A stretch of 32,528 nt of DNA from NCBI RefSeq assembly GCF_004306155.1, contig NZ_BIMR01000209.1, forward strand, positions 1 through 32,528, in the 5' to 3' direction. This stretch comes from Cellulomonas biazotea (GTDB lineage: Bacteria > Actinomycetota > Actinomycetes > Actinomycetales > Cellulomonadaceae). Shown here piece by piece: positions 1,549 to 9,900 of this stretch. A program made the position numbers and the translations under genes. Under the pieces are notes generated by a model that was not told the origin of the DNA, did no database searches, and saw nothing but the letters and a program-made list of their open reading frames with translations. How positions within the stretch are numbered: the first letter of the stretch is position 1; each line of letters opens with the position of its first letter.

Positions 1549-2577
1549 GTGCAGACGACGCCCGGAAATCCGCGGAAGCCACCGACCCTCGCGGACGTCG
1601 CGAAGCTCGCTGGCGTCTCCCTCGCGACGGCCTCCAAGTCGCTCAACGGCCGGCAGCAGGTCAAGGCCGAAACCCGTGAGAGGGTCCTTTCAGCCGCCGA
1701 GCAGCTGAACTTCTCCCCCAACGTGCTCGCCCGGCACCTGCTGTCCGGGCGGTCCGGCACCATCGGCCTCGTCACGCACGACCTCGAGGGCCGGTTCTCC
1801 ATCCCGACGCTCATGGGCGCCGAGGACGCCGCCGGCACCGGCAAGACGTCCGTGCTCCTGTGCGACGCCCGCGGCGACGCGCTGCGCGAGCAGTACCACG
1901 TGCAGGCGCTGCTCGGTCGGCGCGTCGACGGGCTCATCGTCGTGGGTGCCCGCCCCGACCCCCGCCCGTCGCTCGGCCAGCTCCCCGTGCCCGTCGTCTA
2001 CGCGTACGCGCCGTCGCAGGACCCCGCCGACATGTCCGTCGTGACCGACAACCTGCTCGGCGGGCGGCTCGTCGCCGAGCACCTGCTCACCTGCGGCCGG
2101 ACCCGCGTCGCGATCGTCACCGGCGACGCCGGGTACGGCGCCGCGCACGACCGCGTCGACGGCGCATCCGCCGTGCTCGCGGAGGCGGGCGTCGAGGTGC
2201 TCGGGGGGCAGGCGCTCTACGGCTCGTGGACCGAGGAGTGGGGCCGCACCGCCGCGGGCCTGCTCATCTCCCGGTTCGACGACGTCGACGCGATCGTCTG
2301 CGGGTCCGACCAGATCGCGCGCGGCGTGCTCGACACCCTGCGCGAGTCCGGCCGCCGCGTCCCCGAGGACGTCGCCGTCACCGGCCACGACAACTGGGAG
2401 ATCCTCGCGCTCAACGCGCGCCCGCAGCTCACCAGCATCGACATGAACCTCGAGGAGCTCGGCCGCCGCGCCGCGGCCCTGCTGTTCGACGCCATCGAGG
2501 GCAACCCGCACAGCGGCACCGAGGTCATCCCGTCCCGCCTGGTCCCCCGCGGCTCGACGGGCCCGAAGCCGGCCTGA
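1549..2577 (+). CDS. LacI-family transcriptional regulator
   Basis: A DNA-binding repressor of the LacI/GalR family, about 342 residues, which is normal family length. The N terminus holds the helix-turn-helix (TLADVAKLAGVSLATASKSL, then NGRQQV) and the hinge helix (NFSPNVLARHLLSGRS). A periplasmic-binding-protein-like effector domain follows (TIGLVTHDLEG, RRVDGLIVVGA, VVTDNLLGGRLVAEHLL, DAIVCGSDQIARGVLDTL, VAVTGHDNWEI, LTSIDMNLEELGRRAA). There is no ATG near the HTH. GTG 1549 is preferred because AGGGGG lies five bases before it; GTG 1543 is an alternative. A TACGAT hexamer at 1489-1494 could be the -10. The gene diverges from the sugar-binding lipoprotein gene and probably controls it through the 1416-1431 palindrome. 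Its last codons lie inside the first copy of a 105-bp tandem repeat. The effector sugar is unknown. Confidence 0.93.
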   Translation: MQTTPGNPRKPPTLADVAKLAGVSLATASKSLNGRQQVKAETRERVLSAAEQLNFSPNVLARHLLSGRSGTIGLVTHDLEGRFSIPTLMGAEDAAGTGKTSVLLCDARGDALREQYHVQALLGRRVDGLIVVGARPDPRPSLGQLPVPVVYAYAPSQDPADMSVVTDNLLGGRLVAEHLLTCGRTRVAIVTGDAGYGAAHDRVDGASAVLAEAGVEVLGGQALYGSWTEEWGRTAAGLLISRFDDVDAIVCGSDQIARGVLDTLRESGRRVPEDVAVTGHDNWEILALNARPQLTSIDMNLEELGRRAAALLFDAIEGNPHSGTEVIPSRLVPRGSTGPKPA

Positions 2578-2779
2578 CCTGCCCCGGCCGGGCTGACCGC
2601 CGACCCGGGGCGACCCCGTCATGGTGAGCGGAAGTCGGCGCCGTGCGGGCACCATCACGGGGTCGACGGCCGGCCGGCCTGACCTGCCCGGCCGGGCTGA
2701 CCGCCGACCCGGGGCGACCCCGTCATGGTGAGCGGAAGTCGGTGCCGTGCGGGCACCGTCACGGGGTCGACGGCCGGCC
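2571..2779. repeat. Tandem duplicated 105-bp hairpin element between convergent genes
   Basis: Two direct copies, 2571-2675 and 2676-2779, differ by one missing C and two substitutions. Each contains a long imperfect inverted repeat with 16-base arms: 2611-2626 with 2650-2665 (15 of 16 pair), and 2715-2730 with 2754-2769 (14 of 16 pair), each with a 23-base spacer. The first copy starts inside the last codons of the lacI-like gene and includes its stop. The position between the ends of a rightward and a leftward gene suggests a bidirectional terminator, but neither hairpin has a T tract and the duplication is unusual. It could also be a dispersed genomic repeat. Confidence 0.8.
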
Positions 2780-2797
2780 CTGCCTGACCGCGACCGG

Positions 2798-3931
2798 TCA
2801 GCGCGGCGGGCGGCGGGTCGGCAGGTGGAGGCGGACGCTGGTGCCCTGCGCCGGGCGCGAGCGGAGCGTCGCGCGACCCCCGTGGCGGGCGGCGATGACC
2901 CGGACCAGCGCGAGGCCCAGGCCCGAGCCCGGCAGACCGCGGGCGTCCCGTCCTCGGGCGAGCTCGTCGAACACCACGTCGACCTCGTCCGGCGGGATGC
3001 CGGGACCCGAGTCCGCGACCTCGACGACGACCGTCCCGTCCTCGTCGGTCCCCCGGACCTCGATGCGGGTGCCCGGCGGCGAGAACTTCACGGCGTTCCC
3101 GAGCAGGTTGTAGACGGCCAGGTACAGCAGGTCGACGTCGCCTCGCACGTGCGGCAGGGGCCACGGGACCGTCGGCAGCGTCACCACGACGTCCGGCCGC
3201 GGACCGCCCGCGGCCACGGCCTGCGCGGTCACGTCCTCGACGGCGTCGCGGACGACCTCCGCCATGTCGACGTCCTCGTCCTCGATCTCCTGCGTCTCCA
3301 GCTCGGCGAGCTTGCGCAGGTCGGTCACCAGCGCCGCGAGCCGCGTCGACTGCGACACGAGCGTCGCCCGGGCACGCCCCGCGTCGTCGCCGCCGTCCGC
3401 ACCCGCCGCGACCGCCGCCCGGATCGCCGTCACCGGGTTCTTGAGCTCGTGGTCCAGGCGCGCGAGGAAGCGACGGCGCGCGTCCCGCTCCGCCCGACAA
3501 CCGGCCGCCTGCGCGTGGCGGACCTCCGCGTCGGCCCGGCTCCGGCGGCGCGCCGCGGCGGCTCCGGCGACCAGGACCACGGCCGCCAGGACCACGCCCG
3601 CGACGAGCAGCATCGGGGCCGGACGGACGGTGAAGCGCAACGCCGTCGACGGGGCCGCGAGCGCGACCACCAGCGCCGCCACGACCGCGACGGCCAGCAC
3701 GGCCACCGCGGCGACCACGGAGCCGCGAACCCGCCGCGACGGCGCCGGGCGGTCGCCGTCGCGGAACGGCAGAGCGTGTGGGTCGGCGTCGCGCGCAGAA
3801 GACCTGGACGGGTCGGCGTCGTGCGCGGACGCGCTGCGCGGGTCGGCGTCGTGCGCAGACGGCGTGGGCGGGTCGGCGTCGCGCAGCGGCGGTGCGGGTG
3901 CGTCGGCTCCGCGACGCGGCCAGGTCGTCAT
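2798..3931 (-). CDS. Two-component sensor histidine kinase without an extracellular sensor domain
   Basis: A membrane histidine kinase of 377 residues. In order it has a cytoplasmic N terminus with five 10-residue DADP repeats (18-67), two transmembrane helices (about 71-93 and 106-126) joined by a loop of only about 12 residues, a HisKA region with phospho-acceptor His161 (RLDHELKNPVT), and an ATPase domain. The ATPase has an N box (NLLGNAVKFSP), a G1 box (DSGPGIP) and a G2 box (GSGLGLAL). With almost no external loop, it must sense inside the membrane or through partners. The start is ATG 3931, whose ATGA overlaps the stop of the response regulator by four bases, so the two are translationally coupled. 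It is the last gene of a five-gene operon with two lipoproteins and a small membrane protein, which are candidate signal inputs. Confidence 0.93.
   Translation of the reverse strand: MTTWPRRGADAPAPPLRDADPPTPSAHDADPRSASAHDADPSRSSARDADPHALPFRDGDRPAPSRRVRGSVVAAVAVLAVAVVAALVVALAAPSTALRFTVRPAPMLLVAGVVLAAVVLVAGAAAARRRSRADAEVRHAQAAGCRAERDARRRFLARLDHELKNPVTAIRAAVAAGADGGDDAGRARATLVSQSTRLAALVTDLRKLAELETQEIEDEDVDMAEVVRDAVEDVTAQAVAAGGPRPDVVVTLPTVPWPLPHVRGDVDLLYLAVYNLLGNAVKFSPPGTRIEVRGTDEDGTVVVEVADSGPGIPPDEVDVVFDELARGRDARGLPGSGLGLALVRVIAARHGGRATLRSRPAQGTSVRLHLPTRRPPR
3731..3880 (-). repeat. 30-bp coding tandem repeat (10-residue DADP units) in the kinase N terminus
   Basis: On the plus strand the 10-mer ggtcggcgtc recurs at 3781, 3811, 3841 and 3871, exactly 30 bases apart, with a degenerate fifth copy at 3751. 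In the kinase it encodes DADPPTPSAH, DADPRSASAH, DADPSRSSAR, DADPHALPFR and DGDRPAPSRR. Units are acidic-then-polar and probably disordered. An exact 30-bp period makes copy-number change by slippage plausible. Confidence 0.9.
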
Positions 3932-4653
3932 GTGCGGCTGCCGCGTCGGACGTCGCCGCAGAAGCGGTAGCCCTGCGCCGGGACCGTCTCGACGAACCGG
4001 GGCGCGGCGACGTCGTCGCGCAGCACCCGCCGGATCTCCGCGACGCGGTGGTCGACGGCACGCGTCGTGACCATCGACTCGAACCCCCACAGGGCCGCGA
4101 GCAGCCGCTCGCGCGTGTGCAGCTCGCCCGGGTGCGTCATGAGGTAGTCGAGCAGCAGCGACGCCTTCGGCGTGAGCGCGACGGCCGCGCCGCCGAGCGT
4201 CACGCGCCGGGCCGAGCGGTCGACGCGCAGGTCGCCGCAGACCAGGACGTCCGACGCCGCGAGCGCCGGCTGGCCCGGCACCGCGCGGCGCAGGACCGCC
4301 CGCACGCGCGCGAGGAGCTCCTGCGGGTCGAACGGCTTGTTGAGGTAGTCGTCCGCCCCCTCCTCCAGGGCGGCCGACCGCTCGTACGACTCGCCGACCT
4401 GCGTGAGCAGCACGACGGGCGTCCAGTCGCCGCCGGCGCGCAGCCGCCGCACGAGCGCCCGCCCGTCGAGGCGGGGCATGAGGACGTCGCACACGAGGAT
4501 GTCGGACGGCGTGCGCGCGTGGGCGTCGAGCGCCGCCTCACCGTCCGGCGCCGTGCTGACCCGCAGCCCGGACCGCTCGAAGAACGGCACGAGCCCGTCG
4601 AGGATCGCGGGCTCGTCGTCGACGAGCAGGACGTGGGGCGGCGGCGCCGTCAC
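3928..4653 (-). CDS. OmpR/PhoB-family response regulator
   Basis: A 241-residue transcription factor that is the partner of the downstream kinase. The receiver domain (residues about 7-125) shows the acidic pair in LLVDDEPAIL, the phospho-acceptor Asp56 (DILVCDVLMPRLDG), the Thr switch (VVLLTQVG) and conserved Lys106 (YLNKPFDP). The C-terminal half is a winged helix (LTPKASLLLDYLM, LLAALWG, TRAVDHRVAEIRRVL, VPAQGYRF). The GTG start at 4653 overlaps the stop of the DUF4190 gene in a GTGA tetranucleotide, and the gene end overlaps the kinase start. Direct repeats with 11-bp spacing upstream of the operon (6795-6823) are the kind of site OmpR-type regulators bind, so autoregulation is likely but unproven. 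Confidence 0.95.
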   Translation of the reverse strand: MTAPPPHVLLVDDEPAILDGLVPFFERSGLRVSTAPDGEAALDAHARTPSDILVCDVLMPRLDGRALVRRLRAGGDWTPVVLLTQVGESYERSAALEEGADDYLNKPFDPQELLARVRAVLRRAVPGQPALAASDVLVCGDLRVDRSARRVTLGGAAVALTPKASLLLDYLMTHPGELHTRERLLAALWGFESMVTTRAVDHRVAEIRRVLRDDVAAPRFVETVPAQGYRFCGDVRRGSRT

Positions 4654-4907
4654 CGGGTCCCCCACCACACGGCACCGCCGACGACGAGGAGCACCACGAC
4701 GTACAGCAGGGACGTCAGGTAGCCGAGCACGAGGCCGGTGACGGCCAGGCCGGTCCCCCGGTCTCCGCTGCGGCCGATCTGGCGGAGCGCGACGTGCCCG
4801 AGCACGACCGGGATCGCGGCGAACCCGCACAGGCCGAGCACGAGGGACGCGACCGCGAGCGCGTTGGTCCGCGGGGCGACCGCGTACCCCGGGGCGACGC
4901 CGGTCAC
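4650..4907 (-). CDS. Small DUF4190-type membrane protein
   Basis: An 85-residue protein with the usual DUF4190 plan: a short N-terminal tail, a first hydrophobic helix (NALAVASLVLGLCGFAAIPV), a conserved polar loop (LGHVALRQIGRSGDRGTG) and a second helix (LAVTGLVLGYLTSLLYVVVL), ending in WWGTR. The start is GTG 4907, overlapping the DUF3060 stop by four bases (GTGA); its own stop overlaps the response-regulator start in the same way. The family's function is not established. Its place between two lipoproteins and a two-component pair suggests a membrane accessory to the sensor kinase, which has no external domain; this is inference from context only. Confidence 0.85.
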   Translation of the reverse strand: MTGVAPGYAVAPRTNALAVASLVLGLCGFAAIPVVLGHVALRQIGRSGDRGTGLAVTGLVLGYLTSLLYVVVLLVVGGAVWWGTR

Positions 4908-5557
4908 CGGTCGCTCCCCGCGGTGCCCGCCCCACCCGCGGCGGGGTCGGTGCCGGGGTCGGGCACGCCGGGCTCGGGCAGGCCGAGCTCGACCGTGCCG
5001 ACGGGGCCGTACGCGTTCCCGGCGCCGCCGTCCCGGACCGCGGGGTCGCCGTCCTCCCACGCGACGCGCACGTCGGCGGCGTCGAGGTCGACCGACGAGA
5101 CGCTCGCGACGACCACCCGGACCGACGAGGCCGACACGGCGAGCCGCTCGACGTCGCCCGCGACGACCAGCGCCCCGGCACCGTCGACCGTGAGCGTCCC
5201 GCACGCGTCCCCGACGACGACCGCCACGGCGGCGTTCTCGACCCGCAGGTCGCCGCCGTCGCAGGTCAGGTGCTGCGTCGCGCGCGACCCGAGCGTGGCG
5301 CGGTCGAGCATCGCGGCACCGGCGTCGTCCCGACCGACGGTGCGGCGAGGGGGCGCGGTGTCGTCGGCCGCCTCGATGCCCTGCGACGTCGGGTCGCCGC
5401 CCGCGGTGTCGCCGTCCGACGTCCCGGCGTCGCTGCCCTCCGGGTCGTCCTGGACGACCTCGACGCTGCACGCCGCGAGGGTCACGGACAGCAGCGCGAC
5501 GGCCCCGACCGCTCGCGCACGGCGCCCGGCCGCAGACGTCCCGCGTCGTGCGGTCAC
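4904..5557 (-). CDS. DUF3060-like lipoprotein
   Basis: A 217-residue exported lipoprotein. The signal has a basic N region (TARRGTSAAGRRAR), a hydrophobic core (AVGAVALLSVTLAAC) and a lipobox Cys, then an acidic D/S/G-rich linker. The mature domain begins near the QHLTCDGGDLRVENAAVAVV segment and runs as short repeating beta-strand units (CGTLTVDGAGALVVAGD, VERLAVSASSVRVVVASVSS, VDLDAADVRVAWEDGDPAV), the pattern of DUF3060. It ends in a Pro/Gly/Asp tail. The GTG start at 5557 overlaps the stop of the OmpA-like gene (GTGA), which fixes the start and implies coupled translation. The function of the domain is unknown. It could be an extracellular sensory or wall-associated partner of the same operon's kinase. 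Confidence 0.82.
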   Translation of the reverse strand: MTARRGTSAAGRRARAVGAVALLSVTLAACSVEVVQDDPEGSDAGTSDGDTAGGDPTSQGIEAADDTAPPRRTVGRDDAGAAMLDRATLGSRATQHLTCDGGDLRVENAAVAVVVGDACGTLTVDGAGALVVAGDVERLAVSASSVRVVVASVSSVDLDAADVRVAWEDGDPAVRDGGAGNAYGPVGTVELGLPEPGVPDPGTDPAAGGAGTAGSDR

Positions 5558-6750
5558 GACGGCACCACGATCTCGACGCGGCGGTTGAGCTGCCGCCCCG
5601 CGGGGTCGTCGACGCCGTCGACCTCGTTGGGCGCGACGGGGCGCGTCTCGCCGAAGCCGGTCGTCTCGAGCGACCCGGTCATGCCGCGGTCGGCCAGCGC
5701 GGCGGCGACCGCGTCCGCGCGACGCTCCGACAGGGCCTGGTTGAGCTCGTGCGACGACACCGCGTCGGTGTGCCCCTCGACGCGCGCGGCCGGGACCGTC
5801 GCCAGGACCTGCGCGACCGCGTCGAGCGTGGCCGTGGCGTCGGGTCGCAGCGCGTGGCTGCCGAAGTCGAACAGGACGGCGGCGTCGAGGACGACCCGGG
5901 TCCCGCACGACGGCACGGGGGCGAGCACGCCCATCGACGGGAACGAGCCGAGCCGCGGCACGGGCGGCAGCTCGGGCATGTCGGTCGGGATCCCGTCGAC
6001 GAGCCCCGAGCCGTCGCCGTGGTTGACGATCGTCAGGTCCGGCCCGTCGTAGAGCCCGGACCCGTCGCCGTAGTTGGTGATCGTGGTGGCACCGTCGGCG
6101 TACGTGCCGGAGCCGTCGCCGTAGTTCGTGATGGTGCGCTCACCGCGCGCCCACGTGCCTGACCCGTCGCCGTAGAGCGTCACGCTGGTCGTGCCGTCGT
6201 CGTACGAGCCCGATCCGTCGCCGTAGCTGACGACGGTCGTCGTCGCGTCGGAGTACGTCCCCGACCCGTCCCCGTAGACGGTCACCGTCGTCCCGTTGAG
6301 GGTGTACGACCCGGACCCGTCGCCGTAGTTGACGACGGTGCCGTCGGGGCCGGTCAGCGTCCCCGACCCGTCGCCGTACGCCAGCAGCGCACCGGGCGAC
6401 GCGATGCCCTGCGCGTCGCACCGGGCCGGCTCGACCCGCACGCCCGGCAGGTCGCCGACGGCGTCGTCCACGGTGACGGCGAACCCGGCGAGCGACGCGT
6501 CGAGCATCCCGAGGTCGGGCAGCACGAACAGCGGCACGGGCGGGATCTCGCCGACGTCGTACCCGGCCACGACGGGGAGCGTCGGGGTGGGCGTCGAGGT
6601 CGCGGACGGGCGGCTCGCACGGGCCGTGCGGCTGGGCGCGTCACCCTCGGGCGTCGTCGGACCGCCGCACGCGGTGAGGGCGGCCGTCGCCGCGAGGATC
6701 ACGAGAACGCGCGCCGACCTGCGACGGGACAGGGTGCGGGAGGAGGGCAT
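5554..6750 (-). CDS. OmpA-family lipoprotein with seven 17-residue YGDGSG repeats
   Basis: First gene of the envelope/two-component operon, 398 residues. It has a lipoprotein signal with Cys28 (LTACGG), a Ser/Thr/Pro linker (about 31-60), a short folded segment, a repeat array at 125-243 plus a partial eighth unit, and a C-terminal OmpA-like domain (about 283-398). The OmpA domain shows LFDFGSHALRPDATATLDAV, VEGHTDAVSSHELNQALSERRADAV, TGFGETRPVAPN and NRRVEIVV, the usual peptidoglycan-binding pattern. In a Gram-positive cell the lipid anchor would hold it in the membrane while the OmpA domain grips the wall. The repeats probably form a beta-solenoid. The ATG start at 6750 has no Shine-Dalgarno, but TAGTTT lies six bases upstream, suggesting a leaderless mRNA. 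The stop overlaps the next gene. Confidence 0.9.
   Translation of the reverse strand: MPSSRTLSRRRSARVLVILAATAALTACGGPTTPEGDAPSRTARASRPSATSTPTPTLPVVAGYDVGEIPPVPLFVLPDLGMLDASLAGFAVTVDDAVGDLPGVRVEPARCDAQGIASPGALLAYGDGSGTLTGPDGTVVNYGDGSGSYTLNGTTVTVYGDGSGTYSDATTTVVSYGDGSGSYDDGTTSVTLYGDGSGTWARGERTITNYGDGSGTYADGATTITNYGDGSGLYDGPDLTIVNHGDGSGLVDGIPTDMPELPPVPRLGSFPSMGVLAPVPSCGTRVVLDAAVLFDFGSHALRPDATATLDAVAQVLATVPAARVEGHTDAVSSHELNQALSERRADAVAAALADRGMTGSLETTGFGETRPVAPNEVDGVDDPAGRQLNRRVEIVVPS
5992..6378 (-). repeat. 51-bp coding repeat array (17-residue YGDGSG units)
   Basis: Seven consecutive units of exactly 17 residues start with YGDGSG (residues 125-243 of the OmpA-like lipoprotein), followed by a partial eighth starting HGDGSG (244-253). 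Each unit continues with an aromatic or hydrophobic residue, a short polar turn, and an alternating T/V strand ending in N, V, S or L. The exact period and Gly/Asp turns suggest one solenoid coil per unit. Confidence 0.95.
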
Positions 6751-6756
6751 GCCGAC

Positions 6757-6762
6757 AAACTA
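6757..6762 (-). promoter_or_regulatory. -10 hexamer TAGTTT for a likely leaderless OmpA-operon mRNA
   Basis: On the minus strand TAGTTT fits the actinobacterial TAnnnT -10 and lies six bases before the ATG at 6750. Transcription would then begin at or beside the start codon. No Shine-Dalgarno-like run is present in the gap. A clear -35 is not visible. Confidence 0.55.
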
Positions 6763-6794
6763 CGTGGACCGGACCGACCCGGCGGTCGCGGCGC

Positions 6795-6823
6795 TGTCGC
6801 AGCGGTGTCGCAGTACTGCGACA
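6795..6823. promoter_or_regulatory. 18-bp perfect palindrome and 11-bp-spaced direct repeats upstream of the OmpA/two-component operon
   Basis: TGTCGCAGTACTGCGACA at 6806-6823 is a perfect palindrome. Its half-site TGTCGCAG also occurs at 6795-6802, exactly 11 bp before the copy at 6806-6813. The cluster lies about 45-73 bp upstream of the predicted start of transcription at 6750, a position suited to an activator. An 11-bp period puts sites on one DNA face, as for OmpR-family boxes, so the operon's own response regulator is the first candidate ligand. Confidence 0.65.
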
Positions 6824-6884
6824 GGGCGACGCGGTTCACCCGTCCGGGCGTCGGCGCCGCACCGCGGCACGGGCGCGCAGGTGT

Positions 6885-6914
6885 GGGTGGCCGCGCCCCT
6901 CCGCGCGGCCACCC
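6885..6914 (-). terminator. Strong GC hairpin after the GH43 gene
   Basis: A perfect 12-bp stem (GGGTGGCCGCGC at 6885-6896 with GCGCGGCCACCC at 6903-6914) encloses a 6-base loop and begins 14 bases past the stop codon of the GH43 gene. There is no T tract, which is common for actinobacterial terminators. It would end the two-glycosidase transcript before the divergent OmpA-operon control region is reached. Confidence 0.75.
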
Positions 6915-6928
6915 CCACCCCGGTCAGG

Positions 6929-9900
6929 TCAGTCCCAGGGCCAGCGCCAGCCGCCGCCCGACCACGGCCACTCCCAGCCCGTCTTGGGCGGGAGGACCGG
7001 GCCGACCGGGTCGGACACCGCCGACGCGGTGACCAGGCCCGCGCCGAAGCCCGTGACCCGGACGGTGACCGTCGCACCCTCGAGGTCCGCGGGGACCTTC
7101 AGGCGGTCAGCGGTCGCCCCGGCGACGCGGACGCCGTCGGCGAACCAGACGTACGCGAGGCGCACGTCGCGCGGCTGCCAGCCCTTCGTCTCGACCTTGA
7201 GGGTCTCGCCGACGCGGACCTTCCCGGTGACCTTCACGGTGCCGGGGACGACGGCCGCGGCGGGCGAGCAGTCGGGGACGTCGGCCCGGAAGGCCCACGA
7301 CACCGCCTGCGGTCCGGCCGGGAAGGCGTACCCGTCGAGCGGCACGGCCGCGACCGTGACGACCGACCCGAGTGCCACGGCGACGGTCCCGGTGACGACC
7401 GAGCCGTCGACGCGGTACTCGACGCCGTCGGTGGTCGGCACGGCGAGCGACCCGTCACCGGGCTCGCCGTCGGTGCAGACCGGGCCCGTGTAGACCGGGA
7501 CGGCGGGTGTGACGACGACGTCCTCGACGGGGCAGTCCGGGGCGGTGAAGACGTGCTCCCACGTCGTCGTCGCCCCGTCGGCGAGCGTGTACCCGTCGGC
7601 CGCGCGGGCGGTGACGACGACTGCTGCGTCGGCCGCGACCTCCACGGTGCCGGTGACGTCCGTGCCGTCGATCGCGTAGACGACGCCCTCGACGTCCGGG
7701 ATCACGACCCGGGCCGCCTCGGCGACGCCGTCGGTGCAGACCGCTGACGCCGTGAAGGTGGGCGCGGCGGGCGTGACGACCCCGTCGGGCTCGGCGGCGC
7801 CGACCTGCCACTCACGGATCCCGACCGACCCCTGCCCGGCGGCCTCGCCCCAGGACTGGGCGACGATCCGCAGCGCGCGGGTCGTGACGGCGTCGAAGCC
7901 GACGGGCACGAAGCCCGTCGAGGTGCGGGCGTAGGTGCCGGACGTCAGCGCGACGTCGTGCCAGGTGGTGCCGTCGGCGTCGAGGTACTGCAGGGTCCAC
8001 GACCGGGGCGCGATGAGGCCCTCGTTCTGCGCGTCGGGGACGTTCTGGTACCACCACACGTTCGCGCGGTCGACGGTCACGTCGAAGTCCCACGTGAGCT
8101 GCGCCCACTGCTCGCCGACGCGGTCCCACGTGCCCCACGACGACCCGTACTTCGACGCGTCGTCCTCGCCCCAGGCGTTGGTGCCGTCGACCATGCCCGC
8201 GACGTTCTCCCACCCGGAGGTGAAGGACGCCGTGGCGGTGGCGTACGGGGCGACGTTGCCGGACAGCGACGCGCCGTCGCCGAGCGGGATCGTCACCGTG
8301 GCGGTGGCGGTGTTGCCCGCGCGGTCGCGGGCGCGGACGACGAGCTCGTGCGGGAGCATGTCGGGCGCGTCGACCACGGCACCGTCGGCGGCGACGACCC
8401 ACTCACCCGTGCCGTCGAACCGGTACTCGACCGCGGCGACCCCGGACAGGGAGTCGGTCGCGCCGAGCGTGACGGCCCGGGTGGCCTCGTCGAGCGCGGC
8501 GGTGACGGCGGGGACACCGGTGTCGACCTTGACCGTGCGGCTGACCTCGGCGGACGTATTGCCCGCGGCGTCGGTGGCCCGGCCGCGGACGACCGTCTCC
8601 CCCTGCGCCGACACCGGGACGTCGACCGACCGGGCATCCGGTGTCGAGATCCACGCACCGTCGCCGACCCGCGTGCCGATCGTCGTGAGGTACGACGTGT
8701 CGTCGTCGGCAGACACCCGGACGGTGACGGGCGAGGAGAACCAGCCGTCCTCGCCGGACGTGCCGGACGCGGACAGCGTGACCGCCGGGGCGGTCGTGTC
8801 GTCCTCACCGGGGTCGACGGTCCCGCCGACGTGCACGGTCGCGGTCACGTACCCGGCGGACTGGCCGAGCGCGCGGCCCTCGACGGTGAACGTGCCCTCG
8901 GCGGCGTAGTCCGCCGGGTCGACGGGCCGCCAGTTGACCGGCGCCCACGCGGAGGAGTCGCCGAACGGCAGGCGGACGGCCGCGGGCAGCGACGGTGCGA
9001 CGCCGACGGGTGTCGCGACGGACACCGACGGCAGCGACGACGCCTGCGCGGAGTAGACCTCCCACTCGGAGACGGACACCGAGTGGACGTACGGGCCCTC
9101 GTCGAGCCCGCGGAACGTGGCCCGCAGCGCGGTCGTCGAGACCGGGTCGAACGTCACGGTGTGCCACGTGTCGGTGGCCGTCGGGTACGTCGCGCCGGAC
9201 ACCGGCTGCCAGTCGCCGGCCTCGTCGAGGTACTCGACGACCCACGACTGCGGCGGCCGGATCCAGTTGCCGTCGCGGTGGAGCTCGATGCCGACCGACC
9301 CGGTGCGCACGGGCGCGTCCCACGTGTACTGCACCCAGTCGGACGGGTGCGACGACGTCGTGCCGCGGTAGTTGCCCCACTGGTCGGGCGGCAGCAGCGC
9401 GGTGGTCCGGCGGAAGCCGTCGTTGACGGCGCCGAGCCGCATGGGCGGCTGCTCGGTGAAGGACGCCGACGCGGTCGCCTCCAGCGCCACGTTGTCCGTC
9501 AGCCGGTAGGCCGGGTCGTCGGCGAGCGTCTGCTCGACCGGCAGGATCCGGTCACCGTCCCACTGCACCTCGTCGATCGCGATGGACCGGCGGAAGTGCC
9601 CGCCGCCCACGGCGTCCTTCGTGTGGTACGTGATCCACCAGCGACCCTCGTGCTCGACGATCGACGGGTGCACGGTCGTCGCGGACGTGCCGCCGAGGAT
9701 GATCCCCTGGTACGTCCACGGGCCCAGCGCCGACGGTGCCGTCGCGTACGCGATGCACGCCTGGTAGTTCGACGGCGTGCACTCGCTGCCGCCCTGCTTC
9801 CAGTCGTACGCCAGGTAGTAGGTGCCGTTGCGCTCGAACACCCACGGCGCCTCGAAGAACCCGGTGAGGCCGGGGATCGTCGCGATCGTGCCGTCCAGCG

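Follow-up and report, generated by a model that had tools for sequence, protein, structure and literature searches.

How a histidine kinase (HK) without a sensor domain obtains its signal is an open question, and a small, self-contained case of it is found in the soil-type actinobacterium Cellulomonas biazotea. We analyzed a window of 32,528 nucleotides (the whole of the stretch studied; positions 1 to 32,528 of contig NZ_BIMR01000209.1), in which five minus-strand open reading frames form one unit encoding an OmpA-domain lipoprotein, a DUF3060 lipoprotein, a DUF4190 membrane protein, an OmpR-type response regulator (RR) and a kinase. We favor, with a probability of roughly 0.6, the view that this operon is an envelope module complete in itself and under positive autoregulation, in which the two-component pair mainly drives production of the operon's own envelope proteins and the accessory products feed the sensor-less kinase. 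The kind of system is known; its parts and the apparent restriction of its regulon to the module are new. The best literature matches included no paper describing this operon, most subscription papers being beyond the reach of the search.

Candidate operator and promoter of the module

A candidate operator, TGTCGCAG-TA-CTGCGACA-CCGC-TGCGAC, lies at 6785-6823 on the minus strand, starts 73 bases before the start codon of the OmpA gene and repeats GCGAC at 11-base spacing (offsets 12, 23 and 34). A -10-like hexamer, TAGTTT (6757-6762, minus strand), stands 12 bases before the ATG, and the OmpA transcript would thus be near-leaderless. Our first survey covered 39 genomes, 25 of them of the genus Cellulomonas including the source genome. 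With up to 2 mismatches, every one of the four cassette genomes had a single operator site and the other 35 had none, and the consensus upstream of OmpA in these four genus cassettes was TGTCGCAGnnCTGCGACAn4TGCGAC. When nine cassettes were compared, the operator began 72 or 73 bases, and a TA[CG]nnT hexamer 12 or 13 bases, before the start codon; pairwise identity was 88% within the operator motif versus 39% upstream and 51% downstream of it.

The best upstream match had 0-4 mismatches of 22 in 14/14 kinase-linked loci, compared with 7-11 in 15 control regions, and shuffled sequences never fell below 6. The controls were seven OmpA genes without a kinase pair, the OmpA and RR genes of locus L067, five related RR genes without a cassette and a cassette remnant in genome G016; G400 (L172), whose contig ends inside OmpA, was omitted. 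No match of up to 5 mismatches was detected directly before OmpA in the OmpA-only loci (L163, L164, L166, L169-L171 and L173-L177), while 5-mismatch matches were present elsewhere in L171 and L176. Order-wide (396 genomes), 10 sites with at most 2 mismatches were identified in 8 genomes, all at module genes, when about 0.6 would be expected from base composition. Nine of these sites point at a module gene; the tenth arises in G333, where the palindromic operator ahead of OmpA also matches when read in reverse. Sites with 3 mismatches (36 of 46 rows, 3 at the module) were set aside as noise, since matches also arise in the backward control and base composition predicts about 14 sites of up to 3 mismatches.

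The operator also marks module genes that have moved apart. In three split modules (G333, G307 and G449) it precedes both halves with 0-4 mismatches (3 and 4 in G307). The DUF4190-less cassette of G363 is accompanied by a second operator about 150 kb away, which fronts a DUF4190 gene, and in G135 an operator stands before the divergent DUF4190 gene; both of these genes outside the operon keep the -72/-73 operator and -12/-13 hexamer geometry. G449 and G496 were found through the operator itself and are not independent evidence for its presence.

In 23/23 module promoters from 19 genomes, the distance from the operator start to a TAnnnT hexamer is exactly 49 (9 promoters), 60 (11) or 61 (3) bases; all of them also have GCGAC at offset 12, with a further copy at 23 or 34. 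These promoters were picked for carrying an operator match, and the OmpA promoter of G135, with two clear repeats only, was excluded. A second TAnnnT was also present in two promoters. In 19/23, the hexamer starts 12 or 13 bases ahead of the start codon, so that the mRNA would be near-leaderless, and the other four have longer leaders. Spacings of 49 and 60/61 differ by a step of 11, and activators of the OmpR type that bind upstream need spacing steps of one helical turn. Comparative genomics makes a strong case that the RR recognizes the operator just upstream of the operon promoter. In the genomes scanned, its only recognizable targets appear to be the genes of its own module, which would make the lipoproteins and the DUF4190 protein the output of the circuit, its input, or both. 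Neither the operator nor the signs of a closed regulon were part of the original prediction, a short reading of this DNA that had proposed the operon and a sensing role for its membrane-anchored products.

In G212, close to an OmpA-repeat gene that has no kinase pair, an 11-base CTGCGACGGGG repeat array (L176, 7144-7185) and a TAGCGT hexamer precede a lipoprotein-like gene without a Pfam match (7252-8346).

Organization of the operon

All five genes lie on the minus strand: the OmpA-domain lipoprotein gene at 5554-6750 (398 amino acids, lipobox Cys28), the DUF3060 lipoprotein gene at 4904-5557 (217 amino acids), the gene for the small DUF4190 membrane protein at 4650-4907 (85 amino acids), the gene for the OmpR/PhoB-type RR at 3928-4653 (241 amino acids) and the HK gene at 2798-3931 (377 amino acids). 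The Pfam scan bore out the names given in the original prediction, DUF3060 with the reservation of a score slightly below its cut-off. The proposed joining of the genes by four 4-base stop/start overlaps was borne out: GTGA between OmpA and DUF3060 (5554-5557), between DUF3060 and DUF4190 (4904-4907) and between DUF4190 and RR (4650-4653), and ATGA between RR and HK (3928-3931). Such overlaps are commonplace in GC-rich operons.

Among nine Cellulomonas/Actinotalea cassettes, two of which (C. sp. B6 and C. iranensis) are near-copies as judged by their regulators, a 4-base overlap is possible at 26/35 junctions. It occurs in 9/9 cassettes at OmpA/DUF3060, in 3/9 at DUF3060/DUF4190, in 7/9 at DUF4190/RR (the other two have a 1-base overlap) and in 7/8 at RR/HK, counted in eight because the C. 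algicola contig stops before HK; the eighth has a 4 nt gap there, and two of the seven overlapping cases also have a start 2 nt downstream. Where it lacks this overlap, the DUF3060/DUF4190 junction leaves 40-75 nt open or, in G011 and Actinotalea, has alternative starts, and AGGAG or GGAGG, resembling a ribosome-binding site, lies ahead of DUF4190 in four open-gap cassettes. In none of the nine was a TAnnnT hexamer found in the ~45 nt directly ahead of the start used for DUF4190, which in G011 and Actinotalea is the earlier of the alternative starts. Scans of 2560-7000 for the sigma-70 consensus and for terminators gave no match; since the OmpA promoter was missed too, the sigma-70 result carries little weight. 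With an open DUF3060/DUF4190 junction in most relatives and no TAnnnT close before DUF4190, the data suggest a single transcript read as two blocks, each translationally coupled, and not a fixed ratio shared by all five products. The idea that the overlaps fix this ratio is weakened accordingly, and in G135 and G363 DUF4190 forms its own unit with its own operator; that of one conserved operon is supported.

Distribution and rearrangement

In the 39-genome survey, close relatives of the OmpA protein and the kinase, with DUF3060 and DUF4190 alongside, were found in G007, G008 and G011, whereas G014 retains the OmpA protein only. G016 retains a lone DUF3060-like gene, flanked by what we take to be dnaX and recR, at the site where G011 has the whole cassette; this gene (L074, 7997-8719) has a tail that can no longer be aligned, lacks an operator and looks like a remnant. 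In G004 there are several RR/HK pairs that have diverged, and an OmpA-repeat gene follows one of them. A scan of species genomes (11 loci) identified carriers in C. algicola, C. sp. B6 (the same as G007), C. iranensis, C. hominis, Actinotalea subterranea and C. triticagri, as well as OmpA proteins in three loci from Micrococcales metagenome-assembled genomes and one fragment, with RR/HK upstream in one; a Hymenobacter match (L093) was discarded as spurious. Gene order is the same in the nine Cellulomonas/Actinotalea cassettes (one contig ending before the kinase) and in G151, which has all five genes. The cassettes occupy differing gene neighborhoods, and the linkage is therefore more than inherited position.

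With the window OmpA protein as query (E 1e-30), homologs were found in at least 13/150 genomes of the family and at least 17/297 of the order, at least 27 distinct genomes altogether; these tallies are lower bounds, since 12 (family) and 6 (order) candidates were scored per genome, and loci L135/L136, identical to L085/L087, were counted once. A kinase pair adjoins the OmpA gene in 13/27 genomes, and in 14/27 none was seen in the few kb on either side (in G318 the contig runs out close to the gene). Five genomes (G057, G078, G063, G363 and G400) have the order OmpA-DUF3060-RR-HK without DUF4190. In G333, G307 and G449 the module is divided between two neighboring units, DUF3060-RR-HK and OmpA-DUF3060. 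In G135, DUF4190 is divergent from OmpA, RR-HK lies beyond OmpA on the opposite strand, and no DUF3060 match was found. No DUF4190 gene was detected in the five OmpA-DUF3060-RR-HK cassettes or in the loci of G333, G307, G449 and G496. Linkage of the kinase to both lipoprotein genes, OmpA and DUF3060, is thus conserved as expected, and that to DUF4190 breaks down in these nine kinase-linked loci. A lack of conserved linkage in relatives, which would have told against the proposed operon, was not observed: the order recurs in Cellulomonas and Actinotalea and is rearranged in other families.

Two further arrangements were observed. In G496 (L207, 5494-6735), an operator precedes a lipoprotein-like gene without a Pfam match and a gene for a short OmpA-domain protein without the solenoid, which converge on RR/HK. 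In G031, from another family, a related RR/HK pair is followed by a DUF4232 lipoprotein gene and an Ig-YkuD (L,D-transpeptidase) gene (L072, 5626-9544).

Kinase and response regulator

Only HisKA and HATPase_c exceeded the Pfam cut-offs in the window kinase, and the Pfam scan found no HAMP or PAS match in it. Two hydrophobic stretches precede the H-box, joined by a loop of ~12-15 residues as judged by eye, and the same two-stretch, short-loop plan was seen in the orthologs scanned. With two helices, a short loop and no other sensor domain, the protein fits the plan of the intramembrane-sensing kinases, in agreement with the original prediction of a two-helix kinase without an external sensor. 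The RR contains Response_reg and Trans_reg_C domains and can be placed in the OmpR/PhoB family by this receiver and output domain and by the 11-base direct-repeat sites that are presumably paired with it. Among ten kinases aligned, this genome alone has the N-terminal stretch of ~60 residues, which contains a decapeptide repeat; a 30-base tandem repeat at window positions 3738-3907 encodes these xxDADP decapeptides, which none of the nine other kinases has.

Accessory proteins

The OmpA-domain lipoprotein has a C-terminal, peptidoglycan-binding-like OmpA domain (5620-5874, minus strand; residues 293-377; PF00691, 63.8 bits versus a cut-off of 27.2), preceded by eight 17-residue YGDGSG repeats (5998-6378, minus strand) that are predicted to form a beta-solenoid. 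AlphaFold2 gave regular strands in the later repeats, with a predicted local distance difference test (pLDDT) score of about 75-85, but modeled the first repeats and the linker with low confidence. Seven or eight repeats were counted in 14 linked proteins scanned, mostly 17 residues apart (range 15-19), and fewer in L142-L145, with matches upstream of the start codon excluded by eye; this is a steady count for a tandem array. D329 and R344 of the OmpA domain are invariant and correspond, by motif and spacing, to Asp271 and Arg286, the diaminopimelate (DAP)-binding pair of Acinetobacter OmpA (PMC5974059). The 50 best Foldseek matches were proteins with OmpA-like domains and thus bear on that domain, not on the solenoid, and the protein reached none of the 25 NCBIfam cut-offs listed. 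The conserved GHTD and LSxxRA motifs of its C-terminal domain are shared with Pal, YiaD, YfiB and actinobacterial Rv0899; unlike these proteins, it carries the eight-rung solenoid between lipid anchor and OmpA domain.

The window copy of DUF3060 (PF11259) scored 22.5 bits, slightly under the cut-off of 23.1; three orthologs scored above it (29.4, 24.6 and 32.9), and three further copies scored 28.7-41.7. Residues ~91-190 are predicted to form a beta-helix (pLDDT above 90), and Foldseek with this model gave no match below E 0.001. The C-terminal domain of CAP, first among the Foldseek candidates in VIA (Z 12.4, root-mean-square deviation 2.0, 99 residues), was set aside as a shared beta-helix fold with no functional meaning. 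DUF4190 (PF13828) scored 63.3 bits versus a cut-off of 35, and 55.0 bits in the G363 copy outside the operon. In the accessible text of the literature searched, DUF3060 was named only in a vaccine design study and no paper paired DUF4190 with a histidine kinase.

Outside the operon, a 104-base tandem duplication with internal inverted repeats (window 2568-2789) lies between the kinase gene and a convergent gene that we take to be of the LacI type. It looks like a dispersed palindromic repeat, because 11 full or partial matches were found in its own genome and single weak ones in five of 23 relatives.

Comparison with known systems

SaePQRS of Staphylococcus aureus (PMC5083920) has a similar operon order: lipoprotein, membrane protein, RR and a two-helix kinase with a very short loop (nine residues in SaeS). 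There the operon is autoinduced, and its lipoprotein and membrane protein join the kinase in a complex and are required for inducing its phosphatase activity. The autoinduced promoter before the first gene has two RR sites; in that place the module has the operator and -10 geometry, known from sequence. The differences are several. SaeS has a HAMP domain, whereas none matches in the window kinase; SaeRS governs many virulence genes and a second promoter lies inside its operon, whereas the strict operator occurs at module genes only. In addition, there are two lipoproteins here (OmpA/solenoid and DUF3060), the phylum is different, and we claim no homology of the accessory proteins.

The sigE-cseABC operon of Streptomyces coelicolor is likewise actinobacterial and encodes a lipoprotein, an RR and an HK. 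Its own promoter seems to be the sole RR target, and loss of the lipoprotein raises it (PMC6767563). Its output is, however, a sigma factor, and CseC is described there with an extracytoplasmic domain. The window RR also differs from CseB, whose equivalog model it did not reach (152.5 bits versus a cut-off of 350), nor did it reach the MtrA equivalog (150.5 versus 300) or the kinase the MtrB equivalog (78.2 versus 450). LiaFSR and other intramembrane-sensing systems of Firmicutes resemble the module in having an intramembrane-sensing kinase aided by an accessory protein, LiaF.

There are differences here as well. LiaR belongs to a regulator family other than that of the window RR, and LiaFSR is not known to include lipoproteins of this type or an OmpA domain.

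Proposed mechanism and alternatives

We propose that the RR would bind the 11-base-phased TGCGAC direct-repeat operator and switch on a single operon promoter. Since the kinase has no sensor domain, its signal would most likely come through the membrane-anchored products of the operon itself. By analogy, the kinase/phosphatase balance would be set by accessory subunits, namely the lipoproteins on the outside and DUF4190 within the membrane, and they would most likely damp the kinase once enough has been made, as SaeP/SaeQ do with SaeS and apparently CseA with CseC. The stimulus would probably be a wall or membrane change that frees or occupies the lipoproteins. This is the weakest step, and wall sensing is here what we infer.

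Several observations weigh against this proposal. The operator was assigned to the RR through co-occurrence only, and the direction of feedback, probably damping, was taken only from analogy. The cassette regulators do not form one clade in the RR tree (3 changes needed), though they may still have a single origin. The half-operator TGCGACAn4TGCGAC, searched with 1 mismatch in 8 genomes, was not enriched over the backward control (5 vs 8 in G000, 13 vs 8 in G007, 9 vs 9 in G008 and 5 vs 12 in G011); only zero-mismatch matches stand out, one in each of these four genomes, at the cassette promoter. There may accordingly be weaker targets elsewhere, which this search neither reveals nor excludes. 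Since DUF4190 genes are common (32/39 genomes), the stand-alone copy in G363 is the same gene only by its operator. DUF4190, not found or separate in kinase-linked loci, cannot be essential to the circuit everywhere, and the OmpA-repeat protein, so often found where no kinase pair adjoins it, has an independent role.

The last two points favor an explanation that we regard as possible, if on balance unlikely: the lipoproteins and DUF4190 are effectors, structural or protective and bound to the wall, and the kinase helices sense the membrane directly, the linked genes taking no part in sensing. Its support is the persistence of the OmpA-repeat protein without an adjoining kinase pair in 14/27 genomes and the dispensability of DUF4190. 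A recognizable regulon made up of the module's own genes only, and a kinase with a loop of about a dozen residues and no sensor domain match, argue in the other direction, while both are compatible with this explanation.

A more specific form of sensing, in which OmpA grips peptidoglycan and wall stress or the membrane-to-wall spacing is passed to the kinase as tension or loss of contact, seems doubtful to us. It draws on the invariant D329/R344 pair and its equivalence by motif and spacing to the pair in Acinetobacter OmpA, on the predicted eight-rung solenoid with its seven or eight repeats in linked proteins, and on the company of the related RR/HK pair in G031, namely a lipoprotein and an L,D-transpeptidase. 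However, Actinotalea subterranea, a carrier, has peptidoglycan of the A4beta type with L-Orn(Lys) (PMC8878594); ornithine/lysine thus replaces DAP, the known ligand of OmpA domains, and this counts against the grip, as does the frequent absence of a kinase pair beside the OmpA gene. Still more speculative, and in our view a long shot, is a closed-loop homeostat that regulates only its own sensor lipoproteins, with the solenoid as a fixed-length membrane-wall ruler whose engagement would be reported via DUF3060/DUF4190 to the kinase; if this were true, the cell would make ruler until the membrane-wall gap is spanned. Finally, an ordinary two-component operon with a wider, unrelated regulon and incidental lipoproteins is very unlikely: OmpR-family sites are often too degenerate to see and the two-repeat pattern does occur at chance level elsewhere in each genome, but in the genomes scanned the strict operator stands at module genes only, DUF4190 genes outside the operon included, and is absent upstream of the tested OmpA genes without a kinase pair.

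For the autoregulated envelope module that we favor, the operator marks members even when they are apart, so that the recognizable regulon amounts to a nearly complete parts list: two lipoproteins, a small membrane protein, an RR and an HK. Natural variants without DUF4190, or with the OmpA lipoprotein only, make the role of each part testable, and the module offers functions to propose for DUF3060 and DUF4190.

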